Assembly: GCF_000691505.1 (NCBI RefSeq)
Contig: NZ_JMIP02000023.1
Location: 71,098 to 135,097, forward strand
Length of the DNA: 64,000 nucleotides
Origin: Halostagnicola sp. A56
GTDB taxonomy: Archaea; Halobacteriota; Halobacteria; Halobacteriales; Natrialbaceae
Reading direction: 5' to 3'
In this document: one piece after another, positions 12,618 to 64,000 of the stretch
Layout: each line of letters starts with the position of its first letter
Numbering within the stretch: position 1 is the first letter of the stretch
Notes under the pieces: generated by a model
Database searches by the model: none
What the model was told of the DNA's origin: nothing
The model's input: the letters and a program-made list of their open reading frames with translations, nothing else
Program-made: the position numbers and the translations under genes

Positions 12618-13635
12618 TGACGACCGTCGCCACGAAATCTGCTGGGAAGTCCCGCTTCCCGGTCGAGGGACGAACTTCTGGATTCCGCTCCAGTTGAATC
12701 CTGAGCAAGAAGACTGGTGGCACTCTCTGATTGACGAAGACGACGACAGTGTGTGGGCGGGTGAAATCCGCCTGCAACGCGACGGCAGTCACTGGGTGTT
12801 GCACGTCACCGCGAACTACGAAGTCGAACCAGACCACTCGTGTTCGTATGAGAGCGACGATGGGACATCCGTCGGGTTCGATGTGGGTGAATCCAAACTC
12901 TTGGTGGGCTGTGCCCTCCGAGACAACACACCCGTTGACCCGTTGGTCGTGGATGGTGGTCGCGTCCGACACCTCCGACAAAAACAAGCCTCTGCTGAAG
13001 ACCGCTTGAAACCACGATATGCGTCGAACCTCTTGGACGACCTCGTGTGGGGGCGGTGGCAAGACGCCATCGAAGACGAGATCGAGAAAACCTCAACACG
13101 AGCAGTCGAATACACAACTCAGTTCGAGAATCCGGTTATTGTTCTCGAATACCTCGACGGTATCACCGACGAGGACATCGGGAAGTACTGGAACCGACGC
13201 CTCGGCAAGTGGCTGTTCTCCCGGTTGCAGTCACGCATCGAGGATAAGGCAGCGGAGCGCGGTATTCCTGTGGAATACGTGTATCCGCACCACACGTCGA
13301 AAACGTGCCACGCCTGTCAGTACATTGGGTACAGACCGCATCAGGGCACGTTCAAGTGTACGAATGAGGCGTGCTGGATGTCGAGGTATCAGGCGGATTT
13401 GAACGCAGCAGCGAACATAGCCAATCGGCTAAATCCGTGGGGAGAGAGCCTGCCTTGGAAACCGGCAGGCGATGACTCGCCTCAGAGTGGGGGCCAGTGG
13501 CAGGCCCACGAAGACACGTCACCGAGTGAGGAACTCCTGTCTGAGAAGCAGGCTTCCGATGACAAGGTTCCGTCTAACTCACCAGCGGTGGGAGCGGGGG
13601 CGGAGCCGGAGACCAGTGACGCGCATACGTCTTGA
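12604..13635 (+). pseudogene. tnpB: TnpB (IS200/IS605 OrfB) RNA-guided nuclease, N-terminus missing
   Basis: The open frame enters from the DUF5781 junction (TVFDHDDDRRHEICWEVPLP) and runs to 13635. The RuvC nuclease core is recognisable: GFDVGESKLLVGCAL (RuvC-I Asp), VLEYLDGI (RuvC-II Glu), a zinc finger CHACQYIGY with FKCTNEAC, and SRYQADLNAAANIA (RuvC-III Asp). The three catalytic acids are kept. The first 100 or so residues (RNA-binding part) and the left end of the element are gone, and the central region looks shortened. The C-terminal 70 residues are acidic and variable. The only in-frame starts are non-ATG codons such as TTG at 12694, so it is probably not functional. Confidence 0.75.
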
Positions 13636-13680
13636 AACCTCAATCCAGCACTTTGCTGGTATTCCACCCGTGGTGGAAGC

Positions 13681-13711
13681 CCCGGCGTTCACGCCGGGCG
13701 AGGATGTCACA
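13681..13711 (+). other. Right-end hairpin of the TnpB element
   Basis: CCCGGCG (13681-13687), loop TTCA, CGCCGGG (13692-13698), preceded by GTGGAAGC and followed by CGAGGATGTCAC. IS200/IS605 elements end in such subterminal hairpins, and the guide RNA (omega RNA) of TnpB ends here with its guide taken from flanking DNA. The element boundary is therefore probably about 13705-13712. Confidence 0.5.
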
Positions 13712-13827
13712 GTTCACTCATTCCCGTCGCTCCGTCATAGATAAGACCTAATAGGATCGAATACAAATAGATACATACAAGGCCGATCTCCAAAGACCAA
13801 TTCCAGACGATTGACGAGGACGGGACG

Positions 13828-62499: not shown

Positions 62500-62623
62500 C
62501 GTCTTGTGAGACCTCCGTCAGTTGACCGCTCCCGGCGACCGGACACGCGACTGTCAACCGATCGCTGGGACGATCGGTCGCGCCACGAAATCACAGCACG
62601 CGAGCGGTCGCGGGAACCTGCTG

Positions 62624-62941
62624 TTATGCGACAATAATGTCGTCGGTCCCTGAGTCTTCCGCTTCGTCCTCGCTCGAATCGGCCGTCTCCTCCTCGAGGT
62701 CGCCTTCGGTCGCCTGATCCGAGCCGGCGTCGGCGTCGGCTTCGGCGTCGATCATCTCCGTCGATGATTCCGATGAACCCGAGCGTCTCGAGGCCGCTCG
62801 CGTCGGCGTCTCCGTGTCCAGTTCGGCCTCGAGAATACGGATGCGCTCTTTCGATTCGACCAGTTCCTCGGTGAGCCCTTCGACCGTCGACTCGAGTTCC
62901 GCAACCGTCGATTCCAGCTTCTCGACGCGGTTTTTCGACAT
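62624..62941 (-). CDS. DUF7518-type coiled-coil protein upstream of smc
   Basis: 105 residues from the ATG at 62941: MSKNRVEKLESTVAELESTV, then EGLTEELVESKERIRILEAE, a continuous coiled coil with heptads. A 60-residue acidic Ser/Glu tail (SSESSTEMIDAEADADAGSD) ends DDIIVA. The gene is conserved directly upstream of smc in haloarchaea, so a link to chromosome structure is plausible but untested. The earlier in-frame ATG at 62968 is less likely. Confidence 0.7.
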   Translation of the reverse strand: MSKNRVEKLESTVAELESTVEGLTEELVESKERIRILEAELDTETPTRAASRRSGSSESSTEMIDAEADADAGSDQATEGDLEEETADSSEDEAEDSGTDDIIVA

Positions 62942-63081
62942 ACCAACTAGCGGTCGGTCCGGACACATAAACGTACGTCAGACAATGATATTCTTTTTGT
63001 TAAGTAACTCGAGCGCGCGTGAATTGAGCGCGTTCTGCACTCGGATTCGCTACCCGGACACACGGGGATCTACAGAGAAAG

Positions 63082-63202
63082 CAAGGCGAGTGCCTTGGGG
63101 TCGTCCGAAAGACGTAGTCTTTCGGGATCAAGCGAACCCTTCGGGTTCGCGGACCTCGCGGGATCTCCGATCCCGCTTAGTGACGAGACGCCAAGGCGTC
63201 TC
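63082..63202. repeat. Array of five consecutive perfect hairpins
   Basis: Five adjacent inverted repeats with tiny loops: CAAGGC/GCCTTG (63082-63097, loop 4), CCGAAAGAC/GTCTTTCGG (63105-63125, loop GTA), GCGAACCC/GGGTTCGC (63132-63150, loop TTC), GCGGGATC/GATCCCGC (63158-63176, loop TCC), GAGACGCC/GGCGTCTC (63185-63202, loop AA). Stem sequences differ, spacers are 6-8 nt, so it is not a simple repeat expansion. It lies between divergent genes and could be a structured RNA or a protein-binding array. Confidence 0.7.
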
Positions 63203-63309
63203 GAACCACTTGACACCGAGGCGGTTCACTTGCTCGCTACTCCGCTGCACTGATACGGCATACCTATATACACCAGCCAATAGGAATATCCACTACGAGT
63301 AGTGGAAGG

Positions 63310-63531
63310 ATGGACGAGAACACGCAACTATTGGCACTTTCAGTATTCTTCGTGGCGATAGGGTTCTTCGGTTCGATTCTACTGGACGGTTGGGCCGGTA
63401 TTCTACTGGTTGTGATTGCAGTCACGAGTTTTTTCATCGCTTCGACGATTGGTCTGCGATTTCTCGCAACCGCGGGAATCCCCAGACGAGATACAGTATG
63501 CAGGGAGTGCCTCGAGCCCACCGACTCGTAG
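63310..63531 (+). CDS. Small two-helix membrane protein with C-terminal CxxC
   Basis: 73 residues: MDENTQLLALSVFFVAIGFF with GSILLDGWAGILLVVIAVTS as two helices, then FLATAGIPRRDTVCRECLEP. The cysteine pair at the end could bind zinc or form a thiol switch in the cytosol. Unknown family. The start ATG at 63310 follows GTGGAAGG. It lies to the right of the hairpin array and is divergent from the smc cluster. Confidence 0.55.
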   Translation: MDENTQLLALSVFFVAIGFFGSILLDGWAGILLVVIAVTSFFIASTIGLRFLATAGIPRRDTVCRECLEPTDS

Positions 63532-63612
63532 CAGTCTCTCGAAATTCCGTTCAACCCGTTGGACTGACGATCGAGATTCACAGGCCAAACTCGAGCCCGC
63601 TGTAGACCGAAA

Positions 63613-64000
63613 TCACAGGGACATGAGCACAATAGCGAGCAGTGCAAACCCGATACCCGCCACTTTTCGAGCCGTGAGCGATTCCTCGAGGAAGACGATA
63701 CCGATGACGGAACTCAGGGCGATGAAGAGCCCGTAGATGGGGACGACGACGCTGACGGGGCCGAGCTCGAGCGCGCGGTAGTACGCCAGGAGGCCGACTG
63801 CCAGCGTGATTCCCCACCCGGCGATATAGGGCGTCTTCGGATGGTTCAGGTACGGCCGGACCGGAATTTCCCTGTAGACTAACACGCCGCCGACGAACAC
63901 GAGCATGACGAAGTTCGAGAGGAAGACGGCCATCGTGCTCGGGATCGACTCCATCGCTATTTTCATCACCGGCGCGACTAGGCTGTACGCGACGAACGCG
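63613..64000 (-). CDS. DMT/EamA-type transporter, partial (runs off right edge)
   Basis: About 129 residues visible, open at the window edge. AFVAYSLVAPVMKIAMESIP, STMAVFLSNFVMLVFVGGVL, then YIAGWGITLAVGLLAYYRAL and GPVSVVVPIYGLFIALSSVI, ending EESLTARKVAGIGFALLAIV. Four hydrophobic helices and the conserved G-P-V-S-V-V-V-P-I and E-x-L-T-x-x-K-x-x-G motifs identify one EamA (10TM/4TM drug-metabolite) unit. Only one EamA repeat seems to be encoded, so it may be a small half-size member. Substrate unknown. Confidence 0.75.
   Translation of the reverse strand, partial: AFVAYSLVAPVMKIAMESIPSTMAVFLSNFVMLVFVGGVLVYREIPVRPYLNHPKTPYIAGWGITLAVGLLAYYRALELGPVSVVVPIYGLFIALSSVIGIVFLEESLTARKVAGIGFALLAIVLMSL

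Follow-up and report, generated by a model that had tools for sequence, protein, structure and literature searches.

In the window, that is, the whole stretch of 64,000 nucleotides from Halostagnicola sp. A56 analysed here, five perfect hairpins follow one another between the minus-strand genes for a DUF7518 protein and SMC and a plus-strand open frame of 73 amino acids, which has no Pfam match and is followed by an EamA gene. What kind of sequence is this array, and how did it come to lie there? A sequence-only reading had offered a modular structured RNA, a cruciform array near smc or a binding platform. Its interpretation stands in part: a cruciform array is possible, and mobile elements were missing from the options offered. 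We consider it highly probable that the array is a three-level nested insertion, in which a palindrome-associated transposable element (PATE) carries a double-hairpin unit, O, which in turn carries a second one, M1, and that the units are mobile in trans by way of a structure-reading enzyme. Comparison between loci provides an empty counterpart for each level and shows modular insertion with clean O and M1 junctions.

The hairpin array and its host element

An inverted-repeat search found hairpins of 6, 9, 8, 8 and 9 bp within 122 bp of the plus strand, confirming five different perfect hairpins over a span one base longer than previously noted. Hairpin 1 (63082-63087/63092-63097; 6 bp, CAAGGC-GAGT-GCCTTG, loop GAGT) is followed by hairpin 2 (63105-63113/63117-63125; 9 bp, CCGAAAGAC-GTA-GTCTTTCGG), hairpin 3 (63132-63139/63143-63150; 8 bp, GCGAACCC-TTC-GGGTTCGC), hairpin 4 (63158-63165/63169-63176; 8 bp, GCGGGATC-TCC-GATCCCGC) and hairpin 5 (63184-63192/63195-63203; 9 bp, CGAGACGCC-AA-GGCGTCTCG). 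When the 122 bases were shuffled 5,000 times with dinucleotides preserved, 4,259 shuffles had no hairpin, 693 had one, 48 had two and none had more. The array occupies the only 125-bp bin with five hairpins in the 64-kb window, and bins away from it have at most three. Perfect stems with short loops might also be independent intrinsic terminators or chance palindromes, but the shuffles and the homologous arrays found elsewhere leave this explanation a negligible probability. By eye, T-runs are absent between the stems, and a terminator array was dropped on this ground. The array is built of modules, and the earlier view that it is neither a terminator nor a tandem duplication was right.

The next densest cluster of the window (13580-13735) has three perfect hairpins within 125 bp (CCAGCA-CTT-TGCTGG, TTCCACC-CGT-GGTGGAA and CCCGGCG-TTCA-CGCCGGG) and no match to R2, the covariance model of unit O.

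A search of the same genome with the array stretch returned dispersed partial copies with common ends (TCTACAG..AAGGCGAGTGCCTCGGGGTC on the left and CTTGACCCCGAGGCGGTTCAC on the right), three of which (L028, L031 and L035) are hardly more than the ends. At two tnpB loci of this genome (L033 and L034), the right-end palindrome is the one also found in the window copy, and the protein of L034 matches the Pfam entries OrfB_IS605 and Cas12f1-like TNB. The outermost level of the array (63070..63229, plus strand) runs from CTAC on the left to GGTTCAC on the right and measures about 160 bp, of which the element itself makes up about 52 bp and the inserts the remainder. Its right end (63209..63229, plus strand; CTTGACACCGAGGCGGTTCAC) matches the tnpB elements L033 and L034 as well as the minimal copies L028, L031 and L035. 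The orthologous locus of H. larsenii (L019) is without the insert. Because of the shared ends, the tnpB right-end palindrome and the absence in H. larsenii, this level is taken, on sequence grounds, as a PATE, i.e. a terminal-only remnant of an IS200/IS605 (IS1341/TnpB) element. Its ends and palindrome are common with IS605/TnpB elements, and about 160 bp is too short for a transposase gene. No direct repeat is visible at its edges, which can be placed only to within about 5 nt, as L019 deviates from the window close to the junction.

PATEs are known from Haloquadratum and other haloarchaea (PMC3119063). According to the parts of that study used here, they resemble the window copy in the lack of terminal inverted repeats, the near-terminal palindromes of IS605 type, a length without room for a transposase and the existence of 52-bp terminal-only forms. 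Unlike the PATEs described in those parts, the window copy is interrupted by two double-hairpin units. Hairpin 1 corresponds to the subterminal palindrome of the PATE left end, and by eye other copies have (A)GGC-CGAGT-GCC(T) in its place. Its 3′ arm has an alternative partner in the PATE right end: 63092-63102 can pair with 63212-63222 (plus strand) as the outer stem of the interrupted PATE palindrome, with one G-T pair and one mismatch, and this pairing excludes hairpin 1. Six pairs of the outer stem are invariant in all 33 aligned cassettes, a constancy that is uninformative because the scan pattern had fixed half of those letters. Outside the element, another hairpin (63289-63306, TCCACTAC-GA-GTAGTGGA) lies directly before the start codon of the 73-aa frame.

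The location between divergent open frames, where extrusion under supercoiling is conceivable, would suit a cruciform, or a binding platform, acting locally on the expression of smc or DUF7518. We regard such a role as very unlikely, as H. larsenii has no insert at this locus, inspection by eye of the 620 bases upstream of DUF7518 in three further loci (L018, L020 and L021) revealed no such sequence, and relatives of the array are located elsewhere. The link to smc and DUF7518 made in the sequence-only reading is therefore not upheld, and the array is probably without host function at this locus.

Unit O and its targets

Unit O (63101..63208, plus strand) was delimited by comparing empty with filled tnpB ends. 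M1 splits it into 63101-63127 and 63181-63208, which together make 55 nt; O plus M1 make 108 bp. O starts with TCG, has hairpins 2 and 5 of the array as its first and second hairpins, linked by TGATGA, and ends with CGAACCA. A kink-turn or C/D box reading of the TGATGA linker was dropped after inspection by eye. The window matches the O covariance model at 63097-63217 (E 1.3e-7). Between the empty tnpB end L033 of this genome and the filled end L248, the difference is one 56-nt insertion at GCCTCGGGG^CTTGACCCC, with one aligned flank base changed, and L066 has a 54-nt insertion at the same point. In the alignments of empty and filled sequences, the junctions of O and M1 are clean and target duplication is absent. 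In L066 (5239-6528), the right-end O insert lengthens the TnpB frame by 18 residues, to 429 aa from 411 aa in the empty L034.

How widespread such units are was assessed by an exact-pattern scan of public genomes, which gave at least 120 stretches. The pattern fixed the right end of the cassettes, and the constancy of that end is therefore by construction. Among the 80 matches listed, all titles named haloarchaeal or halophilic taxa except one "uncultured archaeon". These 80 of the at least 120 stretches were parsed into cassettes; seven had no recognised left end, and 73 were parsed, one of them (L053) spurious. Among these listed matches, 54 of the 73 parsed cassettes have two hairpins, and 17 of 98-104 nt have four (the long ones counted by eye). 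A 150-nt cassette (L108) has, by eye, six hairpins and a third level of nesting. O alone measures 53-58 bp, and the units overall are mostly 53-60 bp long.

With the array as query, matches at E <= 0.001, many of them partial, occurred in 100 of 125 family genomes, so that the search for other arrays with shared stems proposed earlier was productive. Model R2 matched in 55 of 61 family genomes and all five genus genomes at E <= 0.01, where E-values are rough, some places match on both strands and weak matches are possibly other hairpin pairs. In Haloquadratum sp. J07HQX50 the O model has 58 hits, a number that counts some places on both strands. A search of a plasmid collection gave 26 matching records for the PATE region and 42 for an O from Haloquadratum; therefore the units are not confined to chromosomes. 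A phage collection gave no match at the sensitivity used. Within PATE palindromes, 108 of 159 rows have O in the usual end order, one is ambiguous and none is reversed, the remainder being without a recognised end and some loci being counted twice. This single orientation fits a polar target rule, yet equally one ancestral insertion that spread with its host element. By eye, no parent element with a transposase between the O hairpins was seen in the loci without a recognised left end, which makes a weak negative.

One copy of O (L290) lies in a different palindrome. A search of 125 family genomes with its joined flanks led to the hairpin GGCTGTG-CCA-CACAGCC inside another tnpB-like gene (416 aa). 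Of the 39 copies of this second target, 26 are empty (24 with loop CCA and two with ACA) and 13 are filled, proportions that are not a frequency because the filled copies were chosen from split matches. All 13 filled copies have an insert of 54 or 60 nt at one and the same base, GGCTGTG^CCACACAGCC. O enters both targets, this hairpin and the unrelated PATE palindrome, on the 5′ side of the loop. These comparisons place O at hairpin tips and show that it keeps its shape while its letters change. At the internal tnpB site, 11 of the 13 inserts leave the reading frame open. A peptide role for O was considered for this reason and rejected, since the lengths of the right-end inserts include non-multiples of three; the open frames at the internal site probably reflect tolerance by tnpB.

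In a tree restricted to the tnpB gene portion, filled copies are scattered among empty ones, with 11 changes against a mean of 11.0 when the labels were shuffled. At least six changes are forced by well-supported branches; the bootstrap of this tree had yet to settle, and three of its rows are on long branches. A filled and an empty copy (L399 and L420) are about 98.9% alike. As judged from these sequences, the mixture of filled and empty copies must be due to copies gaining O repeatedly, losing it precisely or being converted by one another. The mobility of the units, which we infer, has to be weighed against two other processes: inserts could also be passed on by gene conversion from one tnpB copy to another, with no transposition involved, and some of the scatter in the tree could stem from their precise loss.

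In four genomes of different genera (L299, L301, L304 and L340), O or O+M1 is found in one common surrounding (..GACGC-GGTGTCG..), a third recurrent target.

Unit M1, nesting and a candidate enzyme

Unit M1 (63128..63180, plus strand) is a 53-bp double-hairpin unit in the linker of O, with hairpins 3 and 4 of the array as its first and second hairpins. A plasmid of H. larsenii carries a near-identical O without M1 (L241), from which the window copy differs by one 53-nt gap and in two loops. The loci examined contained 31 distinct M1 units, of which 16 are forward in O, nine are reverse and six are elsewhere or unclear. Full O+M1 composites occur in several genomes, one of which (G001) has four full-length copies at 92-94% identity, and some composites occupy contexts other than PATEs. 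M1 enters a linker and not a hairpin tip, and for this reason falls outside the hairpin-tip rule.

A different three-hairpin array with ends AACTTTTGC..CTCGGCAAAATCC and an M1-like hairpin pair was observed twice in the same genome (L011 at C17:16574 and L013 at C6:435798). Host elements in other genomes (L352 and L356) resemble this array and carry O+M1.

In the nested insertion that we favour, a terminal-only PATE of IS605/TnpB type would have entered between the DUF7518/smc genes and the small divergent frame. The 55-bp O would then have entered the PATE palindrome, and the 53-bp M1 the linker of O. Both O and M1 would move in trans, through a structure-reading enzyme that acts on extruded cruciforms or single-stranded hairpins. 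Since every inserted unit brings in hairpins that can be targeted in turn, arrays would grow. Genes matching Y1_Tnp (PF01797) are present in this genome and in four of the five genus genomes. Because such genes exist in most of the genus and the junctions are without duplications, the leading candidate for the enzyme that moves O and M1, which we put forward tentatively, is an IS200-type Y1 transposase. The analysis turned up neither a donor enzyme nor an autonomous parent for O or M1.

Stem covariation and known small mobile elements

The stems of the units are preserved while their sequences change. In 33 equal-length cassettes, 97.0% of the cells pair, and covariation was 0.178 against 0.065 in shuffled data, a value reached in none of 500 shuffles. 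Covariation was 0.262 against 0.095 in 49 cassettes (0/500) and 0.308 against 0.132 in M1 (0/500), the last based on 13 of the 31 units, all of one length class. Stems broken without compensation in relatives had been named earlier as the refuting outcome; in the dispersed copies the opposite was found.

Such strong covariation in O and M1 is what would be expected of a structured non-coding RNA, either omegaRNA-like or encoded by the PATE, whose stems are kept by selection on the transcript. In the same direction, the single-stranded 341-nt neighbourhood folds better than 100 of 100 shuffles on either strand (z -5.5 on plus and -3.8 on minus), and M1 loops are biased toward one strand. It is also reported that haloarchaeal TnpB omegaRNAs have a right-end hairpin (part of PMC12558985) and that a 489-bp PATE shared by a halovirus and its host shows strong transcription from one of its ends (part of PMC10544981). 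Nevertheless, we judge an RNA improbable. An RNA made from one strand should favour G-T over A-C mismatches, and the O stems of 109 distinct cassettes have 22 G-T/T-G, 22 A-C/C-A and 40 other mismatches (excluding several loci of other contexts, any arm with over three mismatches and four unparsed cassettes). Therefore there is no sign of selection on an RNA strand in O. The triloops GNA and TNC are also nearly equal in O (70 and 78 of 198), and M1 is found in both orientations inside O. An Rfam search of 62500-64000 at E up to 10 gave three matches below the gathering score and none in 63070-63229. The modular structured RNA proposed before is thus modular, in its units O and M1, and its RNA part finds no support in the wobble counts. 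Strong covariation in haloarchaeal intergenic arrays need not imply a functional RNA, because mobile hairpin units covary too.

C-G-closed GNA triloops are highly stable in DNA. GNA and TNC together make up 148 of 198 triloops in cassettes and 51 of 350 outside them, a generous test given that the cassettes are related, and this preference suggests that something favours stable DNA hairpins. The loops of O also come as reverse complements of each other (TTC/GAA, TCC/GGA and TTT/AAA). M1 is unlike O in this respect: its loops are strand-biased, with TTC 27 and GAA 5 of 62 loops, which does not fit strand symmetry.

The stems may alternatively be kept by mutation, if template switching or copy exchange linked to cruciforms swaps hairpin tips as blocks and flips their loops. 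Among 15 locus pairs with a left-flank score >= 0.95, which share loci and are hence not independent, ten differ by whole paired tips (e.g. L166/L231 and L205/L237), and five are identical or one base off. The ten pairs make it seem that tips are indeed swapped as blocks, and the reverse-complement O loops and the wobble symmetry agree with this process. It leaves insertion, nesting and spread unexplained, and the GNA/TNC preference speaks against it. We give it a substantial, if somewhat less than even, chance; it would complement the nested insertion as the source of the covariation.

Several known systems resemble the units in part. The small mobile repeats of Haloquadratum termed SMR-A (HqIRS42/43/55; PMC3119063) are, like the units here, present in many copies without target duplication; their length is about 110 bp, and O+M1 measures 108 bp. 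As far as the relevant parts of that paper and the empty and filled tnpB ends go, SMR-A and O both lie inside near-terminal PATE/IS605 palindromes without target duplication. In contrast to the length of SMR-A, the units here are mostly 53-60 bp, and O alone makes up 54 of the 73 parsed cassettes among the matches listed. SMR-A also has prominent inverted terminal repeats, which are short and imperfect here (TCGTTCG/CGAACCA in O and TCAAGCG/CGCTTAG in M1); two loci (L292 and L293) have symmetric terminal repeats, GTCGTTCG/CGAACGAC. The word "hairpin" is absent from PMC3119063, double-hairpin anatomy or covariation is unmentioned in the parts considered, and the mobilisation mode of these small repeats was termed enigmatic there in 2011.

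By analogy, the nearest counterparts appear to be the double-hairpin elements (DHEs) of fungal mitochondria and the REPINs of bacteria. DHEs are very short and dispersed, have two hairpins and are thought to be mobile (PMC10085805, PMC2800124). Going by the portions of these papers used, O is similar to them in having two stem-loops and a short linker, in its dispersal and in the lack of flanking duplications. Unlike DHEs, O and M1 are located in the chromosomes and plasmids of archaea and are nested within palindromes of TnpB/IS605 elements. REPINs are paired palindromes with compensatory changes, for which movement in trans by an IS200-related transposase (RAYT) has been proposed; REPIN ends keep their sequence, and the two palindromes fold together into a single long hairpin or a clover, whereas O stems vary in sequence (part of PMC3116915). 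Hairpin-tip insertion is not described for REPINs in that part. A survey of inverted repeats (PMC13155455) has nothing on haloarchaea in the portion covered, and a literature search, mostly at title and abstract level, found no description of double-hairpin anatomy, nesting or hairpin-tip targeting in haloarchaea.

More generally, it is possible, although we lean slightly against it, that O and M1 represent a haloarchaeal class of 53-60-bp mobile DNA units recognised by shape, namely two stable-triloop hairpins, and not by sequence. Such units would insert with one-base exactness at hairpin tips, above all at the right end of TnpB/IS605 elements and in the tnpB gene, and into each other, producing nested arrays. 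They may be parasites or silencers of TnpB elements. If the right end is transcribed as in Halobacterium, O in the TnpB right-end hairpin would lengthen the omegaRNA, which could alter TnpB activity. The two-hairpin units, the clean junctions at hairpin tips and the filled and empty tnpB copies make the question of mobilisation testable: the 54-bp unit and its target hairpin are both defined, and Y1 transposases are candidates for the enzyme.

A larger array was observed in Halapricum (L080:3200-3420). It comprises six or more triloop hairpins, each with a stem of 8-9 bp, and is apparently made of further double-hairpin units.
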